From the IMG/VR virus record IMGVR_UViG_3300035071_000003, positions 1 to 29,474 of that record: 29,474 nucleotides of DNA. The stretch is one strand, 5' to 3'. Below the pieces are notes generated by a model, which saw only the letters and a program-made list of their open reading frames with translations, did no database searches and had not been told where the DNA came from. This document shows, one piece after another, positions 13,040-29,474 of the stretch. The stretch is from a virus. Position 1 is the stretch's first letter. Each line of letters begins with the position of its first letter. The translations under genes and the position numbers were made by a program.

Positions 13040-13260
13040 TTCATTTTTGATAGGGTCTTTTATCGGCGAAGAACGGTCCCGGAATTTTTGTCGAGGCAGG
13101 CCTCGGCGACCGCGCAGGGGTTATTATTTTCAGCTGAGCCGTTTTGTGGTTATGGTGTGGTTACGAAAACAGAACAACCTTAGTTTTCAAAAGCAACAGG
13201 CTCCGGCCAGGGGCACCAAGAAAAAGCCTAACATGCTGTTTTTACTGTGTTTAATCTCGC
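13040..13260. other. Intergenic stretch between regulatory island and integrase
   Basis: No convincing gene on either strand. It contains the left copy of the 15-bp att-like sequence and the 3' flank of the integrase gene. A CCCGCAC/GTGCGGG hairpin overlaps the integrase stop (13267-13290) but has no T-run on the integrase side. Confidence 0.4.
13204..13218 (+). repeat. Candidate attachment-site core, left copy
   Basis: CGGCCAGGGGCACCA, identical to 29262-29276. It looks like the 3' end of a tRNA gene (T-stem strand, acceptor CAGGGGC, discriminator A, CCA), a favourite target of tyrosine integrases, and lies 43 bp beyond the integrase stop. No tRNA body is attached. A 15-bp match can arise by chance in a 29-kb GC-rich window, so position is the main support. 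Confidence 0.4.
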
Positions 13261-15500: not shown

Positions 15501-15594
15501 GTGAGTGATCCTGAAAGAAGCGAGCGCCTGTTTGCGCCGGCGAATAGGAGACTCGCACGGCCTCGCTTATTCCGTCAATCCTTTATTTTCAAAC

Positions 15595-15617: not shown

Positions 15618-15630
15618 TTATCACGGCATA

Positions 15631-15668
15631 AAAAAACGGCTGGCGACGATGCAGGGCCAGCCGTTTTC
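15631..15668 (-). terminator. Strong intrinsic terminator ending the structured RNA
   Basis: On the minus strand AAACGGCTGGC pairs with GCCAGCCGTTT (11 bp, 11-nt loop), followed by further T residues (TTTTAT). Because of flanking A and T runs it could also work rightward. Confidence 0.85.
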
Positions 15669-16009
15669 GTTTCATATGGAGGATATGCGATTTATCGCCC
15701 GATAAGAATAGCACAAGCGATACTTGATGCAAGCAGTTATTTGGCTAAGCAAGACTAGCTTGAGACTCTGCCGATTTCGCGCCCGTTTTTTCTAGGTATC
15801 TTCTCGCGTGCTCTCGCGCGCGTCTTCTATGAAGAATCTCTATAAGAAGAATATTCTTATAAACACCGGAGGCCCATAGACCTTCTAACCTAATCCGGCC
15901 TCGTCAAAGCGCCCTCATAGGGAGGGCAAGAGAAGAGAGCGCGAATTAGGTTAGGATGTCTAAGAGCGGACTAAGAAACCCGAAGGTCACCGTCTGGCCC
16001 GGCGTCGCT

Positions 16010-16076
16010 AGGCGATTAGCGAACACGTTCGCTGGTAAATTCAAGACTTTCGTCTTGCCTCTAGGAGAGATCGCCT
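16010..16076 (-). ncRNA. tRNA-like four-way junction inside the structured RNA
   Basis: A closing stem of exactly 7 bp (AGGCGAT with ATCGCCT) holds three arms: a 4-bp CTCT/AGAG arm, a CAAGAC-GAAA-GTCTTG arm and an AGCGAA-CGTG-TTCGCT arm, with an 8-nt single strand between the last two. Arm order and sizes imitate a cloverleaf of 67 nt. It lacks a normal T-loop, a 7-nt anticodon loop and a CCA-compatible end, so it is not a functional tRNA as read. Confidence 0.35.
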
Positions 16077-16211
16077 CCCCTCCCTCTCGCTTCCAGCGTT
16101 AGACTGCGATTGCGCCGTGAGGGATACCCGTGGAGCGCTTACGATCCGTCGCCACTGTTTGCATCGTCCGACGGAAAGGCCTTTGGTGAGCTGGCAGTGC
16201 TCTATGGCAAA

Positions 16212-16240
16212 AGTATACGTTTGAACGGCTCAAATTGCAA
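16212..16240 (-). promoter_or_regulatory. Leftward sigma70-type promoter for the structured RNA
   Basis: On the minus strand TTGCAA (16235-16240) and TATACT (16212-16217) are 17 bp apart. It follows the tape-measure stop by ~200 bp; that gap holds only hairpins, for example GAGCTAC/GTAGCTC at 16380-16397 and CTCCGT/ACGGAG at 16354-16380. The expected RNA start is near 16205. Confidence 0.55.
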
Positions 16241-16441
16241 ATCGCTATTCTAGAGCTTATTTTGCGGATATTTGAAAAACGGGCCGCATAGTCTCGTAAA
16301 CATCTGGCCAGACAGAATAGGGCGTCGGCGATTCTCTAAGATCGACACAGAAGCTCCGTGGCAAGCGAAGCGAAACGGAGAGCTACCATCGTAGCTCCCA
16401 GCCCGTAAAGCGCATCAGCCGCCCTCCCTGTCGATTTCTAC

Positions 16442-18985
16442 CTATCGACTGAAACGGCTCCATAGAGCATTCCCCGGCCTCATCTGGCGCCGCAACTCGT
16501 CCGCCACGACGCCGCGCGCGTGCTGTTCGACGGCGGCGCCGACCTGTTTTGCAAGGTCCGCGTTTTGTTGCGCGTCTCCACCCTGGGCGTGGACCGTGAT
16601 TGGCATATGGACATTTACGGGCCCGGACGCCCCGCCCATGCTGAAGCTCGGCGCCGAGATGCTCGGCGCGCCGACGAAGCCGCCGTTCGCGAATTTCGGA
16701 ACACGGCCGGAGTTGAGCGCCTCCAAAAGCCCGCGGTTCTTTGTGGTCGCCGCGGCGTTGACGACATATTCGCCATTCGACACGGCGGCGAGGATGCTGT
16801 CGCTTCGGCCAGTGCCGGGCCCTTGAATAAGGCCGCCACTGGCGAATCCTAGAACGCCTTTCAGCCCGGAGAAGAGACCTCCGCCAGCGCCGCCGGTGAT
16901 CCCGGAAAAGAGCGCGTCAAAGCCATTTTCGAACGCGCGCGAGGCAAGCTTCTTCAGTAGACCGTCGATTGTCTTGGAGAGCTTCTCGCCGCTGAAAATC
17001 GCGCTTTCAAACGCGCCGCGCAGCTCTTCGCCGAACTCTTTGACGCCGGACTGCCAAGCTTCCTGAGACTGTTTCGCGTCGTCGAGTTTCACCTTCGCCC
17101 GGGCGTAAGTCTCGGCGAGGGCGTCGACCTTGGCGGATAGCTCGGGTGTGACGGCGACGTTGGCTTTCTTCGCGGCCTCCAGGAGATCGAAAGCGGTTTT
17201 CGCCTTTTCGACTTCGATGGCTTCCTTGCCGATACTCTCGCGCTCCTGGTCGAGGGCGCGCGCCTTCCTCTCAATCTCGGCGACCTCACGCGCGAATTCA
17301 TCCGGCGATTTCTCCTTCGCGCTCTTGCCAGCGCCGCCGGAAGCCTTGGGCGCGGTCGATTTCAGCTTGGCGTCGAGGGCCCCATCATCGGGCGCGGGCT
17401 TGTGGTTGAACGTGCGCTCGATCGCGGCCTTGTTCGCCTTGTCGCGAAGACGGTTGAGGGCGTCTCCAATTTCGCCGACATAATCCCGCTTCATCGCGGC
17501 CGCGCCGTCATTGAAGGCCTTGGCGACGGCCTCGCCGGCCGTGCGCGACGCGCCGGTGAGCCTCCCAAACTGCACAGGCTGAATCTGCGGAAACGCGGTC
17601 CCGACGCCTGCATTGGCCGATGACGTGATCTTGTTGACCGTCGACGCGACCTTGTTCGCCGCGCTCTCGACGGCGGCAATAACCGCATTCATGGCCGCGA
17701 TGATCGAATTCGTGATTGCGAGCCCGGTTGCGTCCCAAGCGGCGACGATCGCGTGACCGGCGCTTACAAAGGCGCCGATCGTGAGATTGGCCGTTTCCTT
17801 CACGCCCGCGAGCAAGTGCGCCAGCGCCTCGCCGGCGTCGACCGTCGAGAGGGCCGCCGTCACATATGAGGCCGCCTTGGCGAATTGCGTCTGAAACCAT
17901 GTCGCGGCCTCGCTGCCCTGGTCTTTGATCAGAGAGAACGCGACGCGCGCATAGTCGCCGAGCGTGGCAAGCTCTGAGCTGATCGGATGAATCTGCCCGG
18001 CGAAACCCGCAAGCGCCACGGCCGCCGCGCTAATTCCGCCGACGATCGGGCCGCCGGTCGCAAAGCCCGCAAGCCCAGCGGCGAGGGCCGCCGCCGCCGG
18101 CGCCACGACATTCATATTGGCGGCAAGGGCGCCGATTCCGCCCGCGAGCGCCGAAGACGCTCCGGTTGCTTGATCCAGCGTGCCAACCCAGCGCGTCAAT
18201 TCGGTTTTGAGCATCTGGACGCTTTGACTGATCGTCGGCGTTAGCATCTTCCACTTTTCGTCGAGACGATCGGTCGCATTTAAGATCGCTTCGAACAAAT
18301 CTTTCGACGTGATCTTTCCATCGCTACCGAGTTGCTTTAGCTGCCCAACAGCAACTTTCATTTGACTAGCGATAATCTGAGCAAGCTCCGGGGCATTCTC
18401 CAGAATCGAGCGAAGTTCGTCACCTTGCAGCGTGCCGGACGCGAGCGCCTGCGAAGTTTGGAGAAGCGCCGCTTTGGCCGCCTCGGCGCCCTGGCCGCCG
18501 AGCGTAAGCGCCTTGCTGAGATTTTCCGTGACTCGTAAAACTTGGGCCTCGCTCGCGCCAAGCTCGTCTTGCGATCTCTTGATGCCCTGATATGCGCCGC
18601 CGATGCCTTCGATGCTGGAGCGCGTTCTAACCGCGATGTCGGCTAATTGCTGCATTTTCGAGCCAACGTCTTCGGTCGCGACGCCAGAAGACGCGATGCG
18701 GTTCCGGAACTGCGACCACTCATCGGCGATCTTGCGAAGTTCGTTCGCGCCAAAGGCTGCCGTGAGGGCGCCCGCGGCCGTCGTGGCCATGAGGCGGAAC
18801 TTGTCGCTTACGCCCCTCGTCGCCTGCGCAAAGGTGCTTTCGAGCTTCTTCGCGCCTTGCTCGCCGCGCTTCTCAATATTTTGCCAGTTATCGTTGGCTG
18901 CTTTACTTGCACGCTTAAAGCTCTTTTCGAACTCATTAACGCGGGCTTCAAGAGAAACGACAAGTTGTTCGGCTGTTTCTGCCAT
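16442..18985 (-). CDS. Phage tail tape-measure protein
   Basis: A protein of 847 residues with GAGG before the start. The N-terminus is a coiled-coil (SLEARVNEFEKSFKRASKAA). Residues ~75-300 match the tape-measure N-terminal domain (FRNRIASSGVATEDVGSKMQ, then LASGTLQGDELRSILENAPE and DGKITSKDLFEAIL). A hydrophobic Ala/Gly stretch follows at about 290-345, a charged coiled-coil at about 530-660, and the typical end GGLIQGPGTGRSDSILAAVS with NGEYVVNAAAT. It sets tail length and enters the cell with the DNA. It is the last structural gene of the leftward operon; no tail-tip gene follows, which is unusual. It begins 10 bases after the large terminase gene, a neighbour not normally found before a tape measure. 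Confidence 0.92.
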   Translation of the reverse strand: MAETAEQLVVSLEARVNEFEKSFKRASKAANDNWQNIEKRGEQGAKKLESTFAQATRGVSDKFRLMATTAAGALTAAFGANELRKIADEWSQFRNRIASSGVATEDVGSKMQQLADIAVRTRSSIEGIGGAYQGIKRSQDELGASEAQVLRVTENLSKALTLGGQGAEAAKAALLQTSQALASGTLQGDELRSILENAPELAQIIASQMKVAVGQLKQLGSDGKITSKDLFEAILNATDRLDEKWKMLTPTISQSVQMLKTELTRWVGTLDQATGASSALAGGIGALAANMNVVAPAAAALAAGLAGFATGGPIVGGISAAAVALAGFAGQIHPISSELATLGDYARVAFSLIKDQGSEAATWFQTQFAKAASYVTAALSTVDAGEALAHLLAGVKETANLTIGAFVSAGHAIVAAWDATGLAITNSIIAAMNAVIAAVESAANKVASTVNKITSSANAGVGTAFPQIQPVQFGRLTGASRTAGEAVAKAFNDGAAAMKRDYVGEIGDALNRLRDKANKAAIERTFNHKPAPDDGALDAKLKSTAPKASGGAGKSAKEKSPDEFAREVAEIERKARALDQERESIGKEAIEVEKAKTAFDLLEAAKKANVAVTPELSAKVDALAETYARAKVKLDDAKQSQEAWQSGVKEFGEELRGAFESAIFSGEKLSKTIDGLLKKLASRAFENGFDALFSGITGGAGGGLFSGLKGVLGFASGGLIQGPGTGRSDSILAAVSNGEYVVNAAATTKNRGLLEALNSGRVPKFANGGFVGAPSISAPSFSMGGASGPVNVHMPITVHAQGGDAQQNADLAKQVGAAVEQHARGVVADELRRQMRPGNALWSRFSR

Positions 18986-18995
18986 TTTTACTGCC

Positions 18996-20609
18996 TCACC
19001 AAACCAAAAATCCGTCGGGGCGTTCGTTTATGTCGGCATAGATGCAACGCTGATCTTCGCCAGTTGCCGCACGCGCAACCGCCATCGCGCAAGCTACGGC
19101 GCCGTCTATGCGGTCGCGACTCTTGCCCTTGTGAAACGATCGATTCAGCGCCTTGTCAGTCTCAACGGCGACGTTATCGAAGTTCCATCTAAGAACCGGG
19201 TGGCCGCCGTGTCGGAACTTGCCGGCGATGATCGCGCGCTCGAGCTCGGCGATCGCCGGCGCCATCGTGACCCAGCCTTGCCTCATCTCGACGGCCGGGT
19301 ATCCATCGTCCAAGAGATTGTTGAGCGTGTTGCGGGCTAGGTGTGGATCGAAGGCGATCTCCCGCACGTCGAAGCGCTTGCACAGGTCACGGATGCGATC
19401 TTCAACAAGCCGGAAGTCGACCACGTTGCCCGGTGTCGGCTCGATGAATCCCTTCTCCGCCCAACGTGGATACGGAACGCCGTCATTGTCGGAGCGGCGT
19501 TGCAGATTGTCCTTCGGACAGAAGAACCATGGATGGACGATGTAGCCGCCCTCGCCGTCGCGCCACGCGGCGACAATGACGGTAAGGTCGCTGTTACTCG
19601 ATAGGTCGACGCCAAGCCAACAAGGCTCACCTTCGAGGGCCTTCAGGTCGATCGGCGCGGCGCCCTGGTCGTAAATCGACATATCCACGAACGGGTCGGC
19701 GGAATGATCCAGCCACATATTAAGGTGGAGCTGCTTGAACGCCTCGCGGTCCGCTGGCCGCGCTTCGGCCTCACGCGCGAGCTGACGCAAGCCCTCGATA
19801 TCCGGGAATCCATCAGCTAGGCCAGGATTGACGCGCCGCCAAACCTCTTCGTCCTTCCAATCGGCGTCGCGCGCCGTTTCGAGTAAGACAGGCAATGTCG
19901 CCGGATCGTTTATATCGCCGCGCGCCAGGCGCCGGGCATGATCGATGACGCTCCAGGCGACGTTCTCTTGTCCGCGCCCGGCGGTCGTTATGATGATCGA
20001 AAGCGTTCCGGGCGTCTTCACAAGGCCGGTTTTCAGGACGTCCCATAGCTCTTGGCCGCGAAGGCCCCAGGCGTGCAATTCGTCGGCGATGACGACTGAG
20101 GGCGTCGAACCATGTTTCGTTCCGGCGTCGGAACTAATCGCCTCGATTTGCGAGCCGGATTTGGGATGCAAAAGGCGGTTCTGGTAGTCGCGGAAAATCA
20201 GGGCGTCGGCGAAGCGCTTATCCGCGCGCGAAATGCCTGTCGCTTCCTCGAAACAGATTTTCGCCTGCTTTTGATCCGCCGCCGCCATGAGGATTTGGCC
20301 GCCGTTGACGCGCTCGGGCCCGAATAGGTGCAAGAGCGAGATTGCAGCCGCGAGCGACGTCTTACGGTTGCCTCGGGGAAGCAAGATGACGACGTTGCGG
20401 GTGATGCGGCGCCCGTCTGCATGGCAAGGGCCGTAAATCCGGCGAATGATCCGCTCTTGGAACCGGGGAAGCTCGAAAGCCTTGCCGCGCGAGCGGCTTT
20501 TGGGGTGGCGAAGTATCTTCAGGAACCTAATCGCGCGCTCGCCATAGCCAAATGGATCATCAATCGGCGAGTCGTCGAAAAGCCATGTAGGAAAGCCCTT
20601 GTCGGTCAA
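18996..20609 (-). CDS. terL: Terminase large subunit (HK97/Terminase_1 type)
   Basis: A protein of 537 residues. The ATPase domain shows a Walker A-like LLPRGNRKTSLAAAISLL, Walker B VVIADELHAW and a coupling motif TTAGRG. The C-terminal RNase H-like nuclease domain has WLGVDLSSNSDLT, AFDPHLARN and DRIDGAVACAMA with its acidic residues in place. It pumps DNA through the portal and cuts concatemers, acting with the small subunit whose stop overlaps its start (ATGA). Full family length. It is near the 3' end of the operon here, whereas in most HK97-like phages it opens the head operon. Confidence 0.95.
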   Translation of the reverse strand: MTDKGFPTWLFDDSPIDDPFGYGERAIRFLKILRHPKSRSRGKAFELPRFQERIIRRIYGPCHADGRRITRNVVILLPRGNRKTSLAAAISLLHLFGPERVNGGQILMAAADQKQAKICFEEATGISRADKRFADALIFRDYQNRLLHPKSGSQIEAISSDAGTKHGSTPSVVIADELHAWGLRGQELWDVLKTGLVKTPGTLSIIITTAGRGQENVAWSVIDHARRLARGDINDPATLPVLLETARDADWKDEEVWRRVNPGLADGFPDIEGLRQLAREAEARPADREAFKQLHLNMWLDHSADPFVDMSIYDQGAAPIDLKALEGEPCWLGVDLSSNSDLTVIVAAWRDGEGGYIVHPWFFCPKDNLQRRSDNDGVPYPRWAEKGFIEPTPGNVVDFRLVEDRIRDLCKRFDVREIAFDPHLARNTLNNLLDDGYPAVEMRQGWVTMAPAIAELERAIIAGKFRHGGHPVLRWNFDNVAVETDKALNRSFHKGKSRDRIDGAVACAMAVARAATGEDQRCIYADINERPDGFLVW

Positions 20610-20983
20610 AGATCGAACTCCGAAAGCTCGTCTTCGGGCTGATCGTCGCGAACAACCGGGCGGGCCCGAGAGACCGGCGTGAGGCCTAGTTCGGCCGCGA
20701 GCTGGCGGGCGGTGGCGGCCGCCTGGTTTTGCATTCGGAATAGCTGGGGTGTGAGCCCCTCGGACTGAATCAGGCGCTCAATCTCACGGGCGCGGCCGAT
20801 TGCAACGCAATAATTCTCGACGCTGCCCATGTCGGCTTCCGTGAGAATCTTGCGCTCGATAAGGAGCGGCATGATGCGGCGCCATTCCCTCTTCGCGTCC
20901 GGCGAAAGCCACTCGGGAACGCGCTTTGTGTAGGCGATGGCGTCTTTGTCGGTTCGCAGATGCGGCTTTGCGCCTTTCATCAA
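20606..20983 (-). CDS. terS: Terminase small subunit (P27 family)
   Basis: A protein of 125 residues, typical of P27-type small terminases: LSPDAKREWRRIMPLLIERK, ILTEADMGSVENYCVAIGRA, then an ARQLAAELGLTPVSRAR end before an acidic tail. It recognises the packaging start on phage DNA and recruits the large subunit. It overlaps both neighbours by four bases (head-closure stop and terL start). A second ATG one codon later is an equally possible start. Confidence 0.9.
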   Translation of the reverse strand: MMKGAKPHLRTDKDAIAYTKRVPEWLSPDAKREWRRIMPLLIERKILTEADMGSVENYCVAIGRAREIERLIQSEGLTPQLFRMQNQAAATARQLAAELGLTPVSRARPVVRDDQPEDELSEFDL

Positions 20984-21333
20984 AGCCCCCTATGCCGGGC
21001 GCGGATTTCCCAACCACGGCGCCGAGGGATTTCAGTTAGGGCGATGATTTCGAAGTCGCGGCCGTCATACGTGAGCCGATCGGCGATGCTGAGGGCGTTA
21101 ATCCAGCGCGTCCGGAAGGTCAGAACCTCTTCGATCGAATTGACCTCGCCGCTTTCCTTCACGGTCGACGAAGTAACACTGTCGCCGCGCAGCTCGGTCA
21201 CAAGCTCGGCGCGGAAGTCGCCGAGCGCCTGCCAAGTTGCGACCGGCGCGCCGTAATCGTCGATGGTTTCGGACTTCGCCTCGATAGAGATGGGGCGATC
21301 GAGGCGCCCGGCCCGGATGCGGGGCGATCTCAT
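20980..21333 (-). CDS. Head closure / head-tail adaptor (SPP1 gp16-like, Phage_H_T_join)
   Basis: A protein of 117 residues: GRLDRPISIEAKSETIDDYG, APVATWQALGDFRAELVTEL, then RTRWINALSIADRLTYDGRD and FEIIALTEI. This is the beta-barrel pattern of the head-tail joining family, where GxxxxRI, DxxGxxxxxW and a late YDGxxFEI are diagnostic. It seals the connector after packaging and forms the docking surface for the tail. Overlaps with DUF3168 and terS point to one translation-coupled block. Confidence 0.85.
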   Translation of the reverse strand: MRSPRIRAGRLDRPISIEAKSETIDDYGAPVATWQALGDFRAELVTELRGDSVTSSTVKESGEVNSIEEVLTFRTRWINALSIADRLTYDGRDFEIIALTEIPRRRGWEIRARHRGL

Positions 21334-21737
21334 GCGAGCGCCTCCCCAACCAAGGCCTCGAAAGTAACGACGCCATGGCTGGTAACGCCGTCCGGGTCGC
21401 GCAAGAAACGGGTGTCGTTATAACGGAAGTCGACCAACCCCAGCCGGACGGTTTGGCTGGCCACAAGCGTCTTTCGAAGCTGCCACGCGATGGCCTTCAC
21501 GTTAATCAAGCCCGCCTCGCGATCCCAAACATGGATCGTCGGGAAAAGCCGGACGTAATTGCGCTCAATCGCCATGTCGTCGAGCATTTCTTGCATCTCG
21601 CCCATGATGATGCACGGGAAGACTTCCGGGCGCGCGTGGCGGTCGAAGATTTGCGCCGCCGGCACAAGGGCGGTCATAGCCGGATCGGCGACAAGGGCCG
21701 CGCGCATGCCGGCCTGCAAATTCAAGGAAGGGCTCAT
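21330..21737 (-). CDS. DUF3168 tail-completion (tail terminator) protein
   Basis: A protein of 135 residues: LQAGMRAALVADPAMTALVP, AAQIFDRHARPEVFPCIIMG, then DREAGLINVKAIAWQLRKTL and a VDFRYNDTRFLRDPDGVTSHG end. These are the landmarks of DUF3168, related to the lambda gpU/SPP1 gp17 tail terminator proteins that cap the tube and join it to the head. It is preceded by a 24-codon relic whose TGA overlaps its ATG, and overlaps the head closure gene by four bases. Confidence 0.85.
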   Translation of the reverse strand: MSPSLNLQAGMRAALVADPAMTALVPAAQIFDRHARPEVFPCIIMGEMQEMLDDMAIERNYVRLFPTIHVWDREAGLINVKAIAWQLRKTLVASQTVRLGLVDFRYNDTRFLRDPDGVTSHGVVTFEALVGEALA

Positions 21738-21808
21738 GACGCCCTCGCGAATTCGCCCGTCGCCGGATCATAGGTCAGAAGCTCTTTGAGACGATCAGCG
21801 GTGAGCAT
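21734..21808 (-). pseudogene. 24-codon relic of an HNH/AP2 homing endonuclease gene
   Basis: The frame starts MLTADRLKELLTYDPATG and ends GEFARAS. The first part matches the start of the intact HNH/AP2 protein at 24699-25184 (MLTAERLREVLSYDPETG). The last seven codons and stop match, at DNA level, the 3' end of that gene (GGCGAATT, GCGAGG, CATGAG in the same positions), not its N-terminus. It therefore looks like a paralogous endonuclease gene that lost its middle in frame. It keeps TAATG coupling to gp10 and ATGA coupling to DUF3168, so ribosomes can still pass through. Confidence 0.65.
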
Positions 21809-22218
21809 TATATTTCCCATTGTTCGCGAACGGCCTTGGAGATCGCGCGTTTAAGGCGGCGCTGAATGCGGTCGCGGGTGAGGCGGAACGCGGGCCAGAA
21901 ATAGGGTTGGGCCGGCGTTTTCGAGGTGCCGTATTCGAGCAAATGCGCATACCTCACGTCGCTGTTGCCCGCCGTAATCAGAACCTCATTCTCCTTAGCG
22001 ACGCGCGAGCCTCCTGGTTGGCTGTAGGGAGGCGTCGACTGGCCCGGCGGCGTCATGGTGATGCTGTCTTTGAGCGCGCCGGTGTCTTCGGGCGCAAGCA
22101 GGCGCATTCGATCTACAAGCTCTTGGCCCGATTTCTCCAGAGCGGGCTTCACGGCCTCTTTGACCTCTTTCGGGATAGCGTCGAGGCGCTTCAGAAGGCG
22201 TTCAAGTTGCGCTGACAT
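21808..22218 (-). CDS. HK97 gp10-like neck/tail-completion protein
   Basis: ATG 22218 is chosen because it overlaps the gp6 stop (TAATG), giving 136 residues; a longer open frame would overlap gp6 fully. Sequence: MSAQLERLLKRLDAIPKEVK, LEKSGQELVDRMRLLAPEDT, GALKDSITM, and the diagnostic YAHLLEYGTSKTPAQPYFWP with RRLKRAISKAV. This is the HK97 gp10 family, which acts at the head-tail interface. Its stop overlaps the endonuclease relic. Confidence 0.88.
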   Translation of the reverse strand: MSAQLERLLKRLDAIPKEVKEAVKPALEKSGQELVDRMRLLAPEDTGALKDSITMTPPGQSTPPYSQPGGSRVAKENEVLITAGNSDVRYAHLLEYGTSKTPAQPYFWPAFRLTRDRIQRRLKRAISKAVREQWEI

Positions 22219-22499
22219 TAGAAAGCCCACGTCCGGTAGTTGTTCACCAAATCCCAAAACCCAAGCGGAAAATCATTCACGGTCGCGCCGACAAGCGAAA
22301 CCTCGCGGTTCTCGTAAAGGTGCGCGGCGAGCTTCCGGACGGCTTCCAAGAGCGGCGCGGGCGTCGCGTCGGTAAACGGGCCGCCGGTGAATTCCTCGAC
22401 GAAGGCGGTTGCCGCGTCGATTTTGCCTTGAAGCAACGTATCGTCGTCGGCGCCTGAGATGTTGAGATGCTGCTTGAGATCGTCGAGAGTGATCGTCAT
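22218..22499 (-). CDS. Head-tail connector (gp6-like)
   Basis: A protein of 93 residues: MTITLDDLKQHLNISGADDD, TLLQGKIDAATAFVEEFTGG, then PLLEAVRKLAAHLYENREVS. This is the classic helical gp6/gp15-type connector that docks below the portal. An AGAGG site precedes the start. A promoter-like pair is present at 22530-22559, so transcription may restart here after the GcrA-like gene. Confidence 0.9.
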   Translation of the reverse strand: MTITLDDLKQHLNISGADDDTLLQGKIDAATAFVEEFTGGPFTDATPAPLLEAVRKLAAHLYENREVSLVGATVNDFPLGFWDLVNNYRTWAF

Positions 22500-22529
22500 G
22501 GGAGAAACCTCTATCTAGGACGATATTCT

Positions 22530-22559
22530 ATCATAGGAATATTAACCTATAAACTCCAA
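22530..22559 (-). promoter_or_regulatory. Internal leftward promoter before gp6
   Basis: Minus strand TTGGAG (22554-22559) and TATGAT (22530-22535), 18 bp apart, lie in an unusually AT-rich 130-bp gap. TAGG and CCTA arms flank TTAATATT. An ATAGGAA heptamer here (22533-22539, + strand) also occurs twice at the portal promoter. Confidence 0.4.
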
Positions 22560-22629
22560 TTCGGCTCTCTAAAGAATGAGGCTCCCTGCACCGGTCCCCA
22601 AGGCCTTAAGAAAGTTGAAGCCCCCCCGG

Positions 22630-23424
22630 TCACGCCATCTCTTCCTCTAGCGCGAGGGCTCCGGCGCCCATCTGCTTTGGCGCTTCCTCTCTCTCGCGGT
22701 TTCTGCCCGATGGTCGCATGTGGTTATCGATGGTGGGCATTAGGATATGCTCGATAGACCAGCCACGGCTGACGCGATTTCGCATCGTGCTGTAGTTAAC
22801 GCCTGTCTCTTCGGCCCACTGACGAAGCGTTTGGCTTCTTCCGTTGTGTTCGTATCGACGTGCTGAACGTTCCTTCCGCTGTCGAGGTTCTTTCTCGACC
22901 TTCTCGACCTTGACGCGAGGCTCTTTTCTGGTGCGAACAACTTGGCCGCGAATAGCTTCGTTCGAAAACGCTTGCTCGACGGTCCAACCTCTCATTAAGC
23001 GGTTTTGAAGCGTTCTCCGCTTAGTTCCGAGACGCAGCGACCATTCCGTCAATGAAAGGTTTTCGCCATTGAACATATAGAGCTTGCAACTTGGTGTGCT
23101 TACTTGGCGTTGTCGCGGTTCACGACACACTCGTGGTTTTCTGGGAACCGGTTTAAACTCAAAGGCTGTAATTTCGAGCAATTGTTTTTGACAAACTGGT
23201 TTCGTTTTAGTTCGCGTGACAGCCTTGGATATAGAGCGATGACTACCGGCGATGTTCGATATCGGATGGTGGTGCGTGCAATACGACGAACCTTCGGCGC
23301 GCTTATCAGAACAGAAGGCGAAGCTGTCTTCGTCGCCGATCGGATATTTGCATTGATCTCGACGAAGAGACCAGACAGCTTCAGCTATCGGATTATGATC
23401 GAAGAGGCGTTCAATTGGCGTCAT
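22630..23424 (-). CDS. GcrA-like Cys/His domain fused to two HTH-type repeats
   Basis: ATG 23424 overlaps the preceding stop (ATGA); 264 residues. Residues 25-53 (CKYPIGDEDSFAFC, then YCTHHH) copy the conserved C-terminal motif of GcrA, CRWPIGDP...FxFC...YCxxH, which lies in the sigma70-binding part of that alphaproteobacterial regulator. Residues ~116-153 and ~191-228 are two similar units, each N-G-x(4)-L-x2-W-x5-G followed by R-x3-R-GW-x-[VI]-E. These are the DNA-binding repeats seen in phage HNH/AP2-type proteins; a basic linker separates them. No HNH motif is present. It could be a DNA-binding regulator that contacts host RNA polymerase, or a derelict homing protein. Its place between tail and head genes is that of an inserted gene. 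Confidence 0.6.
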   Translation of the reverse strand: MTPIERLFDHNPIAEAVWSLRRDQCKYPIGDEDSFAFCSDKRAEGSSYCTHHHPISNIAGSHRSISKAVTRTKTKPVCQKQLLEITAFEFKPVPRKPRVCREPRQRQVSTPSCKLYMFNGENLSLTEWSLRLGTKRRTLQNRLMRGWTVEQAFSNEAIRGQVVRTRKEPRVKVEKVEKEPRQRKERSARRYEHNGRSQTLRQWAEETGVNYSTMRNRVSRGWSIEHILMPTIDNHMRPSGRNREREEAPKQMGAGALALEEEMA

Positions 23425-23792
23425 GTTAGGAGATTGAAAGATTGAGTGAAGGTCGCTTTGATCGAACGGTAATTCTGGCCCTGGTAGGTCGCGGCAAGGA
23501 ACGAAACCTCCCATTGCTCGCAAGTCCATTTATCGGGCGTGCTTTTGCCGGGCGCGGTCCAATAGAATGGCGTTATGCCGCCTTGCTGTTGGAGGAAGGC
23601 CTCGATTGAATTAGCTTGAGCCGGCGTCAGGACTTCCCACGTGAGCGAGAATTCGTTCCGGATATGGTTCACGCCCGCCGCTGTGCTTTGGGAATACCCG
23701 TCTCCGAATTCCGCCTTTAGGATAGAGACCTTGGGCTTGTTGGTTGCGCCGACGCTGGGTTGCATGGGCGGCGTGAAGGTCGCGAGCGTCAT
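23421..23792 (-). CDS. Minor tail protein (lambda gpM-like, Phage_min_tail)
   Basis: A protein of 123 residues: VGATNKPKVSILKAEFGDGY, SQSTAAGVNHIRNEFSLTWE, FLQQQGGITPFYWTAPG, then WTCEQWEVSF and SIKATFTQSF. This fits the lambda M family (PF05939), a distal tail component connecting tube and tip. It overlaps the HNH gene upstream and the GcrA-like gene downstream by four bases each. No L-, K-, I- or J-type partner is encoded on this strand. Confidence 0.85.
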   Translation of the reverse strand: MTLATFTPPMQPSVGATNKPKVSILKAEFGDGYSQSTAAGVNHIRNEFSLTWEVLTPAQANSIEAFLQQQGGITPFYWTAPGKSTPDKWTCEQWEVSFLAATYQGQNYRSIKATFTQSFNLLT

Positions 23793-24136
23793 GCGCCGGC
23801 CCTCCGCTCTTGGGATTGTGTCGGGCCGTCATGGCAGGGCTTGCACATGGGCTCCCAATTCGAGCGGTCCCAAAATGCCTTCATGTCGCCCTTGTGCGGG
23901 ATCCTGTGATTGACGATCGTGGCCGGGGCGCCACAGCGCACGCAATGCGGATGCTTCGCGAGGAAACCGGCGCGCGCCTCACGCCATTTGGAGTCATAGC
24001 CGCGTGCGCTGGCGCTCGGGCGTGTGCGATCGAATGCAGCCTTACGCTCGACGTCGCGCTTAATCTGGCAGGCGCATTTCACGCCCGAGGCGACAACGCG
24101 GCCACAAGCGCAGATGCGAGGCGCGCGGATAGGCAC
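23789..24136 (-). CDS. HNH endonuclease
   Basis: GTG 24136 overlaps the tail chaperone stop (TAGTG), giving 115 residues; the longer frame runs through that gene. Four N-terminal cysteines (RICACG, VKCACQ) may bind zinc, then ARGYDSKWREARAGFLAKHP. The HNH core is HCVRCGAPATIVNHRIPHKG, NWEPMCKPCHDG with zinc-type CxxC pairs and the catalytic His of NHRI. Such enzymes are either packaging-associated nucleases next to terminase genes or free homing endonucleases. Here it is far from the terminase genes and tightly coupled to tail genes. Confidence 0.88.
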   Translation of the reverse strand: MPIRAPRICACGRVVASGVKCACQIKRDVERKAAFDRTRPSASARGYDSKWREARAGFLAKHPHCVRCGAPATIVNHRIPHKGDMKAFWDRSNWEPMCKPCHDGPTQSQERRAGA

Positions 24137-24702
24137 TAGATAGCCCTCGCACGAAGGAACGCTGCGAAGGCCGCTTCCGACTGTGCGGGCGTCTTCTTCC
24201 CTTCGCCGGCGCCGAAGATGGCCTTGAGCATGTCCAGGCGGCCGGCATAGGCGGCTTTGATCTCCGCCGGAGTGGCGTTCCAGGCCTCTTCCGGCGACCA
24301 GCCCAGCCAACCCGTGGCGAGCTTGAAGAGCCGGGCGTGGTGCTCCGCGTAGCTTGTGCGATCGTCGGCGCTGGCGTCGCTCTCTTTGGCAAGCTCTTCT
24401 TCGTCGATATCGGCGAGGCGTAGAGTCAGTGCCATAAACGACTCAACAAGCCTACCGACCTTGTAGGCCATGGGCTTACTCGGGTCGCCTGCCAGGAAGT
24501 CGCCGAGAACACATGGCCATTCCGAGCATTCCTCGACCAGCGCCGACATGACGGTGATATTTTGCTCGGCGAGGGCCTTCAGGATTTTGTGGAAGCCGCC
24601 GAAGCGACTTTCCAGGCGCATGGCCGCGCGCAACGTCGGCCGGAGCGTGATGCGACGCTCGCCGTCAAAGGTGATGATCATTTCAGAGTCTGCAAGGCTC
24701 AT
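24136..24702 (-). CDS. Tail assembly chaperone (fused G/T-type)
   Basis: A protein of 188 residues. The N-terminal half (MIITFDGERRITLRPTLRAA, MRLESRFGGFHKILKAL) resembles GTA-gp10-type chaperones. The C-terminal half (FKLATGWLGWSPEEAWNATP, AEIKAAYAGRLDML) resembles the small rcc01693-like/DUF2376 chaperone that usually follows. Normally these are separate or joined by ribosomal frameshift; here one frame seems to cover both. It would hold the tape measure during tube assembly. It follows the tail tube and an inserted HNH/AP2 gene, with ATGA coupling to the latter. Confidence 0.7.
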   Translation of the reverse strand: MSLADSEMIITFDGERRITLRPTLRAAMRLESRFGGFHKILKALAEQNITVMSALVEECSEWPCVLGDFLAGDPSKPMAYKVGRLVESFMALTLRLADIDEEELAKESDASADDRTSYAEHHARLFKLATGWLGWSPEEAWNATPAEIKAAYAGRLDMLKAIFGAGEGKKTPAQSEAAFAAFLRARAI

Positions 24703-25184
24703 GCGGTCCTCGCAAATTCGCCGTGGTAACCAGCGGCGGCGATGGCATACATGTAGCCGGCGAGGGCTAGGTTATGGGCGCTGCCGAGAGTGATCTGTCG
24801 GCCGTCGACGCGAATGCGGACTTGGTAATTTCCGCTCGGAATCTGCGTCACGCCCTTTACTCCGAGCTTTCCGCGTGGGCGCTTGTTCATTTCGTTCTGA
24901 CTGCGCGTCGCGGGCCGGAGATTCTCCCATCGATCATTCAAGCGATCTAAGTCGCGGTGATCTACAAGATTCTTGGGCCACTCGCCGGTCATGTAGAGAT
25001 GCGCGAGAAGCGACGCTAAATAGTTCTTCCCGTCGACCATGATTACGCGGCGCCCATCCTTCTTTCGGATCGTGCCGGCGATATCGCCGACTTTGACGCG
25101 CTGAGCCGTCTTGACGCGCCGCGTAAAAACGCCCGTCTCGGGATCGTATGAGAGAACTTCGCGGAGTCGTTCGGCCGTGAGCAT
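24699..25184 (-). CDS. HNH/AP2 homing endonuclease
   Basis: A protein of 161 residues. N-terminal part MLTAERLREVLSYDPETGVF, HNH_3-type centre LVDHRDLDRLNDRWENLRPA followed by TRSQNE, and a C-terminal AP2-like DNA-binding part (GVKGVTQIPSGNYQVRIRVD, then TLGSAHNLALAGYMYAIAA). Phage genes of this layout are site-specific homing endonucleases that copy themselves into alleles. It lies between tail tube and tail chaperone and is coupled to the latter by ATGA. A shortened paralog survives at 21734-21808. Confidence 0.88.
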   Translation of the reverse strand: MLTAERLREVLSYDPETGVFTRRVKTAQRVKVGDIAGTIRKKDGRRVIMVDGKNYLASLLAHLYMTGEWPKNLVDHRDLDRLNDRWENLRPATRSQNEMNKRPRGKLGVKGVTQIPSGNYQVRIRVDGRQITLGSAHNLALAGYMYAIAAAGYHGEFARTA

Positions 25185-25242
25185 TTCGATTTTTTCCGTT
25201 TAATTGGACGCGCCATATATAGCGGCGCGTCCAGACCTCTCG

Positions 25243-25722
25243 TTATGCCGCCGCGCCCATAGTGACGCCGGTCGTAATGCCGATCTTCACCTTCAACTTC
25301 ACGACGTCCTTGGAAGATCCCGCCTCGAACTGTTTCGAAAGGACCGTGCCCTTCCAGAAGAATTGCGAGCCATGGTGCGGGCCATCGCCGGCCGTGAGGG
25401 CGTCATTCAGTTCGGTCTTGAAATTGAACGGCGCGCCGTTGTTTGCGTCAAAAGCAGCGATCAGCGCGGTCTGCCCGGCGTCGCTCGGATCGTAGGCCAT
25501 GACGAGCTCCACGTCGCCGGCGTCCCGAGCGCCCGCGACCTTCTGGACGCGGGAATCAGAGAGCGACGTAAACTTGATCTCTTCGGCTTCTTCGCCGAAC
25601 GCGCCGAAAGATTCGATTTCGCCTACCTGCTGATAGGTGTCCTCCTGATACGAAGCCAGGTCAGTCGCTGCGGCCGTGGTTCCGACATAGAACTTCGTGC
25701 CGGATGCGGTTTTGATGCTCAC
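25243..25722 (-). CDS. Major tail tube protein
   Basis: A protein of 159 residues: TASGTKFYVGTTAAATDLAS, YQEDTYQQVGEIESFGAFGE, then KVAGARDAGDVELVMAYDPS and DAGQTALIAAF. These are the hallmarks of siphovirus tail tube proteins of the lambda gpV/Phage_tail_3 type (VGEIESFG, D-x-G-x-x-x-L). It polymerises into the tube around the tape measure. It sits directly after the capsid gene, so the usual connector genes between capsid and tube have been moved elsewhere. Confidence 0.88.
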   Translation of the reverse strand: MSIKTASGTKFYVGTTAAATDLASYQEDTYQQVGEIESFGAFGEEAEEIKFTSLSDSRVQKVAGARDAGDVELVMAYDPSDAGQTALIAAFDANNGAPFNFKTELNDALTAGDGPHHGSQFFWKGTVLSKQFEAGSSKDVVKLKVKIGITTGVTMGAAA

Positions 25723-25788
25723 TGGTCTAATTCCTTCTCATGAGAGAGCCGGCGCCTATACGGGCGCCGGCGATGTTTTGGAGAGCGC

Positions 25789-26958
25789 TTACGCGGTCGT
25801 TTTGAGGTAGCGAACTGCTTCCGTCTTCGCGACGTCGCCGCCGACGCGACGGCGGGCATGGAAGCGAACCTTGCCGTTGGTGCGCTGGGTGAAGTCGTCA
25901 CGCATGATGCCGACGCTGATGCGGTCGACGATGCGGTAAGCCGCCTGCATATCGGCGAAGGCAACCGAGATGGTCGACGGCGCAACGTCGGGGGCGTCGG
26001 GAACCTCGATAACCGGGCGGCCCAAGAGAACGCCGCTGTTGCCCGGAACCAGGCCGTTCTCGCCCGTGCCCGGAGCCCACAGGAACTCGCCCGTGGTCGA
26101 CTTGAAGGCTCGAATCTTGCCGATCGTCGAGCGGTTCATGAGCCACACGGCGTTGGCCGCATAGAAGCTCGGAAGCGCGTGATAGAGCTTGATCAGGTCT
26201 TCCGGGGAGATCGTCGCGCCGAAGGCGTCGACGATCGAACCAACGGCCGGCGAGTGAAGGAAGCCCGTCGGCTTGCCGTTGCCGTCGCCGTTGACGAAAG
26301 CGGCGCCCTCAGCGCGACCGAACTCTTCGGCGATGTCGCGCATAAGTTCTTGCTCGAGATTGAACTGGGAGTCCTCGAGCAACTGGAGCGACACGTCGAC
26401 GAAGGTCGCATACTCGTAAGCCGTGAAGGCCTGCGAGTCGTAAGTGGGCGCCGACTCGGTGCGATTTCCCGTCTCGGAAACCCACGCGCCGGACAGGTTG
26501 GCCGTGCGCTTCGGCAGGTCGACAGTGCCGACGCCAATCTGGGTTACGCGCGCGACGCTGCGGATGGGCGAATAAAGGACGAGGTTCTTCTGGAGCTCGT
26601 TCAAGAGAACCGGCGGAACCAGATAGGCGCCGTTGGCCGCGACGGAGAGAGCCTTCGTGTCGACGGCGCCCGTGCGGGCATAGTCGACGAACGCCTTGCG
26701 TTCGATTTCCGCGGCGTCTTCCTTCTTCGTGACGATAGCCGGCGCGCCCGGACGATTCAGGCGGGCTTCGATCTTGTCCAGGCGCGAGCCCAACGCGTCG
26801 CTGTTGTCGTTTTCGAACTTCTTTTCGATCGCCGCAAAGCGCTCGTTGACGGTCGCCGTAAAATCTTCGATCGCCTTCGTCACAATGTCGGCGGCGTCGT
26901 TGTCTTCGCCGCTTTTCAGTTCGATCGGCGCGAGCGCCGCATTCGTCATCTTTACCAT
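25789..26958 (-). CDS. Major capsid protein (HK97 fold)
   Basis: A protein of 389 residues with AAGGA before the start. An N-terminal scaffolding-like delta domain (charged coiled-coil, residues ~1-105) is followed by the HK97 capsid fold: VAANGAYLVPPVLLNELQKN, ARVTQIGVGTVDLPKRTANL, AAFVNGDGNGKPTGFLHSPA, AVWLMNRSTIGKIRAFKSTT and GRPVIEVPDAPDV. The delta domain is presumably removed by the protease encoded just upstream in transcription. A long open frame also runs antisense through this gene, which I treat as an artefact of GC-rich codons. Confidence 0.95.
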   Translation of the reverse strand: MVKMTNAALAPIELKSGEDNDAADIVTKAIEDFTATVNERFAAIEKKFENDNSDALGSRLDKIEARLNRPGAPAIVTKKEDAAEIERKAFVDYARTGAVDTKALSVAANGAYLVPPVLLNELQKNLVLYSPIRSVARVTQIGVGTVDLPKRTANLSGAWVSETGNRTESAPTYDSQAFTAYEYATFVDVSLQLLEDSQFNLEQELMRDIAEEFGRAEGAAFVNGDGNGKPTGFLHSPAVGSIVDAFGATISPEDLIKLYHALPSFYAANAVWLMNRSTIGKIRAFKSTTGEFLWAPGTGENGLVPGNSGVLLGRPVIEVPDAPDVAPSTISVAFADMQAAYRIVDRISVGIMRDDFTQRTNGKVRFHARRRVGGDVAKTEAVRYLKTTA

Positions 26959-26970
26959 TTGCTAACGTCC

Positions 26971-27474
26971 TTACTTGTTGAGAGCCGACGCGGCTCGATT
27001 CAGGGCCTCGACGATCTTGAGCGCCGTCGAGGCGTCTTTCGCGCTCGTAACCCGCGCGCCGGGATGGGCTGGAATAGTGACCAGGGAGCACTCGACTAAT
27101 TCGAGTGCGCTGATGGTGCGCCCGCCGCCCTTGCGCGGCGTCGCGCTCTTGGTCCGGAAGCCGATCGAAAGCCCAGTGACAGCGCCGGCTTTCACCAGCG
27201 CGCGGACTTCACGGGCGCGCTCAACATCGTCGACCAGAAGCCGGCCCTTCAGCGTGAGCCCGGCTCCGGTAGTGACGATATCCGTCCAAACGCCAACGGG
27301 TTGAGCCGGGTCATGAGCAAACAACAGCGGCAACGGCGCGCGGGCGTTTTGGAAGGCCTTGGGCTCAATCACGTCCCCAACGCGATCGGGCGTGCCATAA
27401 GGCCAAGCAATACCGGTGATATCGCCAGCGTCAGAGACGGATATGTTAGCCTTGATCTCGATCCGGTTAGACAT
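26971..27474 (-). CDS. HK97 family prohead protease
   Basis: ATG 27474 (MSNRIEIKANISVSDAGDIT) is chosen for its slight overlap with the preceding gene; 167 residues. GIAWPYGTPDRVGDVIEPKA, PLPLLFAHDPAQPVGVWTDI with the catalytic His, and LSIGFRTKSAT followed by ALELVECSLVTIPAHPGARV with the catalytic Ser are the standard U35/HK97 protease motifs. It matures the prohead by cutting the capsid delta domain and itself. It lies 13 bases before the capsid gene. Confidence 0.93.
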   Translation of the reverse strand: MSNRIEIKANISVSDAGDITGIAWPYGTPDRVGDVIEPKAFQNARAPLPLLFAHDPAQPVGVWTDIVTTGAGLTLKGRLLVDDVERAREVRALVKAGAVTGLSIGFRTKSATPRKGGGRTISALELVECSLVTIPAHPGARVTSAKDASTALKIVEALNRAASALNK

Positions 27475-27808
27475 TGGCGCCCTCGCCTTCCGTTTGCTCC
27501 CGGTCGTCTGTGCCAAACCACGTCGCTTCTAGAATTGAGACGGCGAGCGGATAGACGCGGGCAAGCGGCGCGTCGGTCGCATAGACCGCGACAAGGTTTG
27601 CCGCTTCCTGCGGATCGGCGCCGCCGCCGATCAGACCCAAGCGGATCGTCTCGCAAATGTCCTTATGGCTGAAGTCGCCGGCGAAGAGGCGCTTGCAGAG
27701 AGAGCCGATTCCGACTTCCGTAAGACGTTCAAGCTCGACGATCAGCTTGGGCGTCATTCGGAAGTCGCGCTCGGCGTGGCCAAAGAAGGCGCGATAGGTT
27801 GTGCTCAT
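27467..27808 (-). CDS. GTA-gp10-type protein (tail assembly chaperone family)
   Basis: ATG 27808 overlaps the portal stop (ATGA); 113 residues. Sequence RAFFGHAERDFRMTPKLIVE, LERLTEVGIGSLCKRLFAGD, ICETIRLGLIGGGADPQEAA and ARVYPLAVSILEATWFG fits the GTA gp10 family (PF11836), assigned to tail assembly chaperones. Its position between portal and protease is abnormal, since this gene normally follows the tail tube. With the 24136-24702 protein, the operon has two chaperone-like genes. Confidence 0.75.
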   Translation of the reverse strand: MSTTYRAFFGHAERDFRMTPKLIVELERLTEVGIGSLCKRLFAGDFSHKDICETIRLGLIGGGADPQEAANLVAVYATDAPLARVYPLAVSILEATWFGTDDREQTEGEGANV

Positions 27809-29064
27809 TGTGCGGTCTGTTGAGGCTGGGCGCTGGCGCGCGAGGTGTAGGGGTTGTCCAGCTTGTCGCCGTCGGCGTGGGCCGGGAGGGACTCGAATGC
27901 GCACGCTTCGTTGGCCGTCATGACGCCGGCCGCGCGCATCTTCGCGATGAATTCGCCACGGGCCGCCGAGTCGCCGCGCAACAGGTCGGACGTGTCGAAA
28001 AGGATTGAGTGCGTTTTACGCTCTTCGGAAGAGAGCATGACGCGCCGGTAAGCGGCCTCGAAACCGCGTAGCCAAGGCGCCAGGGTGTAGGTCAGGAACT
28101 GGCGGTTATACTCTTCCGAATTCGACCATGTGGCGCGCGAGGCGTCGCCGATCATGACCGGTGAGACGCCAAAGGCGCGGGCAATCTCGAAGATGGCGAA
28201 CTGGCGCATTTCGAGGAATTGCGCGTCGACCGAAGTAAGGGCGGTTTGGGTAAATTTCGCACCCTGTTCCAAGATAGCCGTCTTACCGCTCCCGGCGCCG
28301 GCGTGGGCCGCATTCCAAGAGTCACGCATGCGCGCGATGGCGTCGGATTTCAGACTGCCTTCGAAGCTAAGAATGCCAGACGGGCGGGCGCCGTTGCCGA
28401 AGAGCCGGGAGGCGTATTGCTCAAGCGCAAGGGCGAGGCCGATCGCCTCGCGCGCGTGGACGATCGGCGCAACGCCGATAATGCCGTTGATGGAGAGCGG
28501 CGAGGTGACGTGGATAATGTCGCGCCAAGAGTAGTCGCGGGGCTCGGCGCCGGAGGCCGGTATTGCCTGCGCAACATCGCCGAGCGTCGAGGCGCCAGGC
28601 GCGGGATTCCAGCGATAGAGCGGCTCCTGTGTCGCCGGGTCGTAAAGGACGATGACGCTGCCCGGCATGAGCCGGATAAGCTCGAAGGCCTCGCCGCTGG
28701 GGAGGCGGTTAGCCAGAGCGAAGCCGTCGCCGTGCAACATGGCGTCGATGGCAAGCTGTGTGCGGAGCGCGCTGGAGCTTGTCCAATCATTCGCCGCGTC
28801 GCCGATAATCTCGAAAGCCGGATGATCGGTTGCCGGAACATGCCCCTGCCCTTCGTCCTTATAGAGCGTGAGCGGAAGCGTTCCGATTGCGCCGGAGATC
28901 AGCGACACGGCGTTGCTTACAGCCGGAACCGTTAGGGCCGTCTCGGGCGAGACAGAGACGCCTGAGAGCGTCGGCGCCGCTAGGAGATCGGCGGGCCAAA
29001 CGTCGGGCGTGAGGGCCTTCTCTTCATACTGGGCGCTTGAACGCCTGCGCCTACGTCTGCTCAT
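27805..29064 (-). CDS. HK97 family portal protein
   Basis: The ATG at 29064 (MSRRRRRRSS) gives 419 residues; a TTG five codons upstream is possible but has no better site. Features: VPAVSNAVSLISGAIGTLPL, LTLYKD, TQLAIDAMLHGDGFALANRL, a DIIHVTSPLSINGIIGVAPI segment and FAIFEIARAFGVSPVMIGDA with SNSEEYNRQFLTYTLAPWLR. These are the ordered landmarks of Phage_portal (HK97 gp3 type). It forms the dodecameric DNA gate of the head and nucleates assembly. It is the first gene of the leftward operon, 32 bases after a promoter -10 box. Confidence 0.95.
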   Translation of the reverse strand: MSRRRRRRSSAQYEEKALTPDVWPADLLAAPTLSGVSVSPETALTVPAVSNAVSLISGAIGTLPLTLYKDEGQGHVPATDHPAFEIIGDAANDWTSSSALRTQLAIDAMLHGDGFALANRLPSGEAFELIRLMPGSVIVLYDPATQEPLYRWNPAPGASTLGDVAQAIPASGAEPRDYSWRDIIHVTSPLSINGIIGVAPIVHAREAIGLALALEQYASRLFGNGARPSGILSFEGSLKSDAIARMRDSWNAAHAGAGSGKTAILEQGAKFTQTALTSVDAQFLEMRQFAIFEIARAFGVSPVMIGDASRATWSNSEEYNRQFLTYTLAPWLRGFEAAYRRVMLSSEERKTHSILFDTSDLLRGDSAARGEFIAKMRAAGVMTANEACAFESLPAHADGDKLDNPYTSRASAQPQQTAQ

Positions 29065-29095
29065 AAAGAATTCTACCAAGGTTCAGCTTGGCATT

Positions 29096-29144
29096 ATTGT
29101 AGCAATACATTCCTATATAGCAAGGATATGTTTCCTATGTATTG
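29096..29144 (-). promoter_or_regulatory. Promoter of the leftward head operon with inverted repeat
   Basis: Minus strand TTGCTA (29118-29123) and an extended -10 TGCTACAAT (TACAAT 29096-29101), 16 bp apart. CAATACAT (29103-29110) and ATGTATTG (29137-29144) form an 8-bp inverted repeat around the -35. ATAGGAA occurs twice (29110-29116 and 29132-29138, minus strand). A regulated late promoter is likely. Confidence 0.6.
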
Positions 29145-29474
29145 GCGTCCTGTGCCTAAAGATGGTGCGGGAGACGCACCAGAGAACCCTTAGCTTTCAA
29201 TGGGCCTCTTAGCGTCCGCACATTCGCATAACAGTTTGTTTTAAAAGGCATTATCCTAGATCGGCCAGGGGCACCATTTGCCTTTTTCACAGCTTTCCAT
29301 AGCCTTCCAAGGTCTCCGAATTCGCCCGCAAAAATGGGCGAACACCGTTAGAAACCAAGGTGGTTGGAGCGGTTTACGCTCCCATTCCACCCATAGCGTC
29401 GCATTGGCAGCCGTTGCGGATTGTTGTTATTTCGTTGTTACGCGCTGGCTCGGTCGCCAGCGTAACAACGTTGG
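29145..29474. other. Non-coding end region with several hairpins and right att-like copy
   Basis: No convincing gene; a minus-strand frame of about 44 codons (GTG start near 29290) is too weak to call. Inverted repeats: TGGTGCG/CGCACCA (29163-29181), TTCGCCC/GGGCGAA (29321-29342), GGAGCG/CGCTCC (29366-29382) and CGTTGTTAC/GTAACAACG with inner GCTGGC/GCCAGC (about 29431-29470). Sequence right of 29276 would be host or a further element. Confidence 0.4.
29262..29276 (+). repeat. Candidate attachment-site core, right copy
   Basis: CGGCCAGGGGCACCA, identical and in the same orientation as 13204-13218. It lies ~200 bp upstream of the portal gene start, outside all structural genes. No tRNA body is attached, as expected if the intact tRNA lies left of the window. 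Confidence 0.4.

Follow-up and report, generated by a model that had tools for sequence, protein, structure and literature searches.

A phage-encoded protein joining a GcrA sigma-interacting domain to two helix-turn-helix repeats, with a plausible role at two predicted promoters

The window analysed here is the entire 29,474-base IMG/VR record IMGVR_UViG_3300035071_000003, and its features are collected in Table 1. The left 13 kb form a different phage module, apparently with its own tape-measure end, tail genes and lysozyme; the tail and lysozyme genes of this module were not found in the relatives described below. The remainder is occupied by an element of 16 kb (13204–29276) bounded by a direct repeat, with genes in the order integrase, tape measure, both terminase subunits, head closure, tail terminator, neck, adaptor and P0001 (the gene under study), followed by minor tail, HNH, a further tail-region gene, HNH-AP2, major tail, capsid, protease and portal. 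A gene for replication was not noticed in it, and it may be a satellite that forms capsids or a gene-transfer-like element of Rhizobiales. By inspection of its annotated genes, P0001 is the only regulator-like helix-turn-helix (HTH) protein besides the integrase. Relatives were found via the large terminase (TerL) in 22 bacterial and 80 viral contigs (L168–L269); the gene order is largely common to them, and all 22 bacterial contigs are alphaproteobacterial by their record titles.

Table 1 Features of P0001 and its surroundings in the window, in order of position
Feature	Position	Strand	Basis or remark
15-bp direct repeat, putative att site adjoining the integrase gene	13204..13218	+	
Head-tail adaptor gene, downstream of P0001	22218..22499	-	PHROG 40, 4.3e-22
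Sigma70-like promoter upstream of the adaptor gene, TTTATA-17-TAGAAT, TG before the -10	22525..22553	-	1 found, 0.1 expected (shuffles)
ATAGGAA site in the adaptor promoter spacer	22533..22539	+	One of three in the window
Conserved DNA element (G-run, AACTTT, GGGGACCGG), putatively cos-like	22550..22629	-	Directly 3' of the P0001 stop
P0001, GcrA-SID/HTH-repeat chimera, 264-aa ORF	22630..23424	-	ATG at 23424, stop ends at 22630
P0001 residues 187–229, HTH repeat 2	22738..22866	-	Repeat profile; PHROG 3377, 7.8e-19; AlphaFold model
P0001 residues 112–154, HTH repeat 1 (beta hairpin and three helices)	22963..23091	-	Repeat profile; AlphaFold model
P0001 residues 59–111, basic linker of low predicted order	23092..23250	-	Sequence; pLDDT 52–58 for residues 61–75
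P0001 residues 12–58, GcrA SID with C25, C38, C49 and H52	23251..23391	-	PF07750, SID profile, alignment, fold match
Minor tail protein gene upstream of P0001, ATGA overlap	23421..23792	-	PHROG 14, 2.2e-28
Sigma70-like promoter upstream of the portal gene, TTGCTA-16-TACAAT, TG before the -10	29096..29123	-	1 found, 0.3 expected
Two ATAGGAA sites, 22 bp apart, at the portal promoter	29110..29138	-	Same spacing in the sister
Second copy of the 15-bp repeat, putative att site	29262..29276	+	Closes the 16.07-kb element

The first-pass annotation had placed a chimera of a GcrA-like motif and phage HTH repeats at 22630–23424; these coordinates are exact, and the gene lies on the minus strand, not the plus strand. 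A longer frame of 299 aa opens 35 codons further upstream, its extra part lying inside the upstream tail gene; the P0001 start codon and the TGA of that gene share ATGA, so that 264 aa is the likely product. A sister contig (one contig under two locus numbers, L002 and L252; record of 15,722 bases) encodes a copy of P0001 (SID locus L045) that is 96% identical, and the two copies are non-independent evidence. The differences are mostly amino-acid changes (dN 0.024, dS 0.031), among them I29T within the KYPIGD motif, and constraint on the N-terminal domain is accordingly unproven. That only two members are known, differing in this way, would suit a functionless relic drifting after a chance fusion; such a relic is nevertheless very unlikely, given a frame that is open in both contigs, metal-ligand residues that are kept, HTH repeats that are identical, and the translational coupling to the tail gene.

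In the cell cycle of alphaproteobacteria, GcrA is a cofactor of sigma70; its DNA-binding domain recognises methylated adenine. The residue pattern C25-x12-C38-x10-C49-x2-H52 with KYPIGD (residues 26–31), which had been taken for the GcrA C-terminal signature at the N-terminus of a phage protein, is present in the translation, and the identification is borne out. The Pfam family PF07750 matches residues 14–55 with 36.8 bits (6.7e-9), above its gathering score of 26.9, over profile positions 100–143 of 155, i.e., the C-terminal part only, which holds the sigma-interacting domain (SID). A profile made from 157 viral SIDs, with the sister excluded, gives P0001 51.7 bits (E 3.7e-14); 20,000 shuffles of residues 1–73 were made as a control, and the best of the 18,547 that were scored reached 11.9 bits. 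With PF07750 above its cut-off and the SID profile far above the best shuffle, the match is beyond chance. All nine invariant columns of a 57-row SID alignment are kept, and a PDB sequence search with P0001 returned the GcrA SID and full-length GcrA as its first matches. Among the matches listed, the tyrosine of P0001 at the usual tryptophan position also occurs in 23 of 157 viral SIDs and the serine after FC in 6 of 157; by score the sister ORF ranks twelfth from the bottom of the 158 SID ORFs listed, and P0001 is thus read as an ordinary if diverged SID.

An AlphaFold model of residues 1–75, made from the SID alignment, has a mean pLDDT of 77 (about 87–95 over residues 21–50) and superposes on 5yix_B with an rmsd of 1.5 A over 42 of 48 residues (Z 4.8); 5yix, 7ye1 and 7ye2, all GcrA, are the sole PDB rows at Z>=2. 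As the model was built from the SID alignment, this match is a sign of compatibility and not independent proof. A generic zinc finger or treble clef that merely resembles GcrA would also present Cys3His ligands, and Pfam does give very weak matches to zf-TRM13_CCCH and WRC; these score 6.7 bits with the whole protein or 12.7 with residues 1–60 against a cut-off of 20.9, and 12.6 against 28.6, respectively, while PF07750 exceeds its own cut-off. The entire pattern C-x-[WY]-P-x-G-[DE]...F-x-F-C...Y-C-x2-H is moreover common to P0001 and GcrA, and the fold matches GcrA only; a zinc finger of this kind is already contradicted and scarcely credible. Judged from sequence and model, the Cys/His motif is a genuine GcrA SID and not a generic zinc finger, and neither of the two outcomes that the first-pass annotation had named as fatal, a missing structural match to GcrA or a generic zinc finger, was encountered. 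The domain would be expected to bind a metal and domain 2 of sigma70 (sigma2).

P0001 is not a GcrA orthologue, a candidate assignment that was rejected. The N-terminal HTH of GcrA, its methyl-DNA reader, was found neither in P0001 (Pfam positions 1–99 unmatched) nor in the sister copy L045; the order DNA-binding domain, linker, SID is not that of P0001, whose SID lies at residues 12–58 of 264; and the NCBI equivalog NF050816 (GcrA) gives 24.9 bits, below its cut-off of 280. Compared with GcrA of Caulobacter crescentus (PF07750; PDB 5yix, 7ye1, 7ye2), P0001 has the same SID signature and predicted fold, but its SID is N-terminal instead of C-terminal and the methylated-DNA HTH is replaced by two unrelated HTH repeats.

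Two NG..W..RGW units, read from the translation as had been claimed, make up these repeats, each of about 43 residues. They score 73 and 79 bits with the repeat profile, of whose ten seeds two are these same repeats; PHROG 3377 matches the region independently (7.8e-19), with its best stretch at residues 181–247. The SID and the repeats were modelled separately since a whole-length MAFFT alignment split the SID rows across both ends. In the AlphaFold model of the block, pLDDT is about 77–92 over most of both units, and the relative placement of the two is not reliable (pTM 0.36). Against the PDB the repeat model gives weak HTH-like rows at Z 2.0–2.5 (MerR-type 5d90, Xis 4j2n, Cro 2pij), and a UBA row scores higher, at Z 3.1. 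Repeat profile, PHROG 3377 and modelled hairpin/HTH units together support the chimera of a SID followed by two phage HTH repeats. Phage HNH endonucleases that carry NG..W..GW repeats (PHROG 3377, and matches by tblastn) have the same HTH unit; they have no SID, and P0001 has no HNH. The repeat unit is also common to PVL_ORF50-like proteins (PF07768), in which the SID is absent. P0001 as an HNH endonuclease was considered and rejected: no HNH family was found in it with Pfam up to E 10, and no nuclease domain.

P0001 lies in a slot between the HNH/minor tail genes and the adaptor gene. HTH repeats are found in this slot in 32 of the 73 loci with a bounded slot, corresponding to 31 of 72 contigs (L002 and L252 being one), a count that excludes the 30 of 103 loci without a bounded slot; among the bounded loci, repeats lie outside the slot only in L195. 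The slot proteins that were read begin with an ARxWL...VCxLAGLDP domain, with an MTPEE... coil, or with no further domain; L255, L190, L179 and L234 share the position and repeats of P0001 but have another N-terminal domain or none, and no SID. No SID was found in six frames in the other TerL-relative loci (L168–L269; 102 relatives, sister aside). P0001 thus has the position and the repeats of the slot family, as defined here, and not its shared N-terminal domain; with no SID elsewhere in the slot, it is read as a slot protein in which a SID took the place of the original N-terminus, unless the exchange ran the other way. As an observation in its own right, the ARxWL...DFxxVCxLAGLDPxxVR domain occurs in slot proteins of L255 (558–1370), L232, L194, L197, L263 and L190, and no Pfam or NCBIfam name was found for it.

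The conserved DNA element after the P0001 stop codon reads G-run, AACTTT, then GGGGACCGGCGCGGGG (elsewhere shortened to G-run/GGGACCGG), and precedes the adaptor gene in 41 of 80 relatives when searched as a loose 16-mer with up to 4 mismatches, the match in L183 being probably chance. It is strongly conserved, GC-rich and independent of reading frame (22550–22629 and L168–L269). The physical right end of HK97 has a similar G run, ATCTTC and GACCGCCGCC, with HNH as the last annotated gene before the end, and this likeness of layout is why the element is read as cos-like. In blastn against phage genomes it gave short chance-level matches only (E about 4), so that a physical genome end is tied to it solely by the resemblance to HK97; by that analogy, it is a candidate cos site for the whole prophage family.

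This neighbourhood offers an explanation of P0001 as an accessory of packaging or of selfish DNA. The slot family would consist of DNA binders derived from HNH endonucleases beside the cos-like element; they would bind it in support of HNH and terminase, or else mark a site for homing, and the SID would be a side acquisition that gives a loose coupling to RNA polymerase or is idle. It is consistent with the frequency of repeats in the slot (31/72 contigs), the HK97-like element directly after P0001, the HNH gene two genes upstream, the match of the repeats to an HNH-endonuclease PHROG, and the absence from the sister of the HNH-AP2 gene at 24699–25184, by which endonuclease genes come and go here. 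The alternative is a real one, since the slot adjoins the cos-like element and most slot proteins have no SID; P0001 itself, however, has no HNH or other nuclease domain, and a SID that keeps nine invariant positions is left unexplained, so this role is considered unlikely, though the least unlikely of the rivals.

Two sigma70-like promoters are predicted by consensus, one upstream of the portal gene and one between the cos-like element and the adaptor gene. ATAGGAA occurs three times in the 29,474 bases of the window and four times in the 15,722 bases of the sister record, in every case within these two promoter regions, and each spacer holds one copy. In the sister's adaptor promoter TAGGAA occurs three times in 88 bp, a density reached by none of 4,000 dinucleotide shuffles, and its enrichment in the portal promoter is reached by 6 of 4,000; in the window's own adaptor promoter TAGGAA is not enriched (P 0.16). 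The count of 8-mers that both promoters of the window have in common is, taken on its own, not significant (P 0.076–0.09), and the ATAGGAA motif was picked post hoc, after inspection. GANTC is absent from the 130 bp before the adaptor gene (22500–22629), with 0.48 expected. L190 and L263, both close relatives, have a promoter-like AT-rich stretch at the same place and no SID at all, which implies that the adaptor promoter does not generally need one.

The reading preferred here, to which we give about an even chance, is that P0001 is a transcription activator tethering host sigma70-RNA polymerase to the two late promoters of the element. A GcrA SID would have been joined by domain swapping to the DNA-binding portion of an HTH-repeat protein specific to the slot; the two HTH repeats would bind ATAGGAA-type sites in the spacers of the portal and adaptor promoters; the N-terminal SID would grip domain 2 of host sigma70 and tether the RNA polymerase holoenzyme; and P0001 may help open-complex formation as GcrA does, but without a methyl-adenine-reading domain. 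It draws on what is observed, namely the SID identity, the two HTH repeats, the loss of the GcrA DNA-binding domain, the consensus promoters, the confinement of ATAGGAA to them and the lone regulator-like HTH besides the integrase, together with the modelled SID fold; ATAGGAA recognition and promoter activation by P0001 are what we infer. The GcrA SID binds sigma2 and GcrA promotes open-complex formation (PMC7403470, in excerpt), and a precedent that supports activation is the GcrA-dependent structural operon of a Brevundimonas subvibrioides prophage (PMC7987155, in excerpt). The reading is weakened by the non-significant 8-mers, the post hoc motif, the non-independence of the sister, the SID-free promoter stretch of L190 and L263, and the I29T and other amino-acid changes between the two copies. 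The earlier suggestion that P0001 could direct host RNA polymerase to element promoters is hence plausible on the sequence evidence, with a candidate site motif at both.

The position of one ATAGGAA inside the spacer of each promoter would suit a repressor too, and is counted against activation. As a repressor or RNA polymerase decoy, P0001 would occupy sigma2 with its SID or cover the spacers with its HTH repeats, thereby silencing promoters of the element or of a competing phage, or it would compete with the GcrA of the host. In favour of this, the annotated genes of the element include none that was seen to resemble a CI repressor. On the other hand, the characterised sigma2-targeting factors listed in the excerpted text of PMC7403470 are all activators, the sigma repressors there targeting sigma4, and the P0001 gene is part of the late operon and lies downstream of the portal promoter. 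This role is thought improbable.

Phage-encoded homologues of GcrA are already known, namely phiCbK gp222 (PMC3556154) and Atu_ph08 gp5 (PMC6630229), both from the excerpted texts; what is new is the layout and the protein frame around the SID. Viral SIDs were collected from IMG/VR with two degenerate DNA patterns: the P0001 spacing gave 43 loci, 39 of which encode SID ORFs, and the canonical spacing at least 120 loci, of which 119 of those listed do; a spacing one residue longer gave 9 stretches, none a SID ORF. Like P0001, these and the phage homologues are virus-encoded SIDs, but 129 of the 158 viral SID ORFs listed have a GcrA-type HTH in the same ORF, whereas repeats of the P0001 type accompany a SID in the sister only. 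The 29 listed ORFs without a GcrA-type HTH comprise fifteen cut at a contig edge and the sister; L081, L121 and L161 have other N-termini (at best weak HTH matches in L081 and L161, the two scanned), and several further ones are short, apparently stand-alone SIDs, judged on the ORF alone. A viral ORF in L032 (4673–5821; IMGVR_UViG_3300037479_000047) carries HNH_3, AP2 and a complete GcrA (PF07750, 92.9 bits); GcrA is joined to homing-endonuclease-type domains there too, but is kept whole (HTH and SID) at the C-terminus.

Exact peptide patterns in bacterial genomes gave 31 stretches and no P0001 relative; P0001 against 385 alphaproteobacterial genomes gave 2 matches at E<=1e-6, both to the SID only; the repeat profile gave none in 190 genomes, a set without a positive control. 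In the phage collection, 29 records match the SID query. Among the sequences searched, P0001 and its sister remain the only predicted SID-first proteins with repeats, and the SID/HTH-repeat chimera is real and very rare in the collections searched. A search of openly licensed works found no GcrA fusion protein. The statement that no protein of this layout has been described agrees with these searches, with the qualification that phage GcrA homologues are known and that IMG/VR has at least one other SID chimera, in L032.

The function proposed for P0001, predicted from sequence and model, is plausible. More broadly, and more tentatively than the activator reading itself, the SID may be a portable RNA-polymerase-recruiting cartridge that alphaproteobacterial viruses transfer from one DNA-binding frame to another, unrelated one: ahead of HTH repeats in P0001, with HNH and AP2 as part of GcrA in L032, beside other HTHs in L081, L121 and L161, or as a short domain standing alone. 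In P0001 it would make a methylation-independent, element-specific sigma70 activator that switches on capsid and packaging genes in a satellite-like element of 16 kb. If a protein that retains only the SID of GcrA, at the opposite end of an unrelated DNA-binding protein, does activate, sigma2 tethering would suffice, independent of methylation and of domain order, and a question on the GcrA mechanism could be tested with one short phage gene. P0001 also suggests that phages shuffle RNA polymerase contacts as modules, and it is a candidate for the late regulator of a class of small Rhizobiales elements carrying head and terminase genes.

Further observations concern the element as a whole. The gene at 24699–25184, an insertion between tail genes that encodes HNH_3 and an AP2-like C-terminus, is taken for a mobile homing endonuclease because it is absent from the sister L002; similar genes lie at other positions in L248, L251 and L256. 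At its end (L275) the sister record diverges fully upstream of the portal promoter, about 65 bp around the promoter being nearly identical; viewed by eye, its outer part resembles the 3' end of a tRNA, which would be expected at an att junction, and ARAGORN called none. About 1.4 kb of the window (14959–16442) have no clear gene and no Rfam match; they belong to a longer stretch in which identity to the sister is about 95%, and could hold an RNA of a new kind or regulatory DNA.
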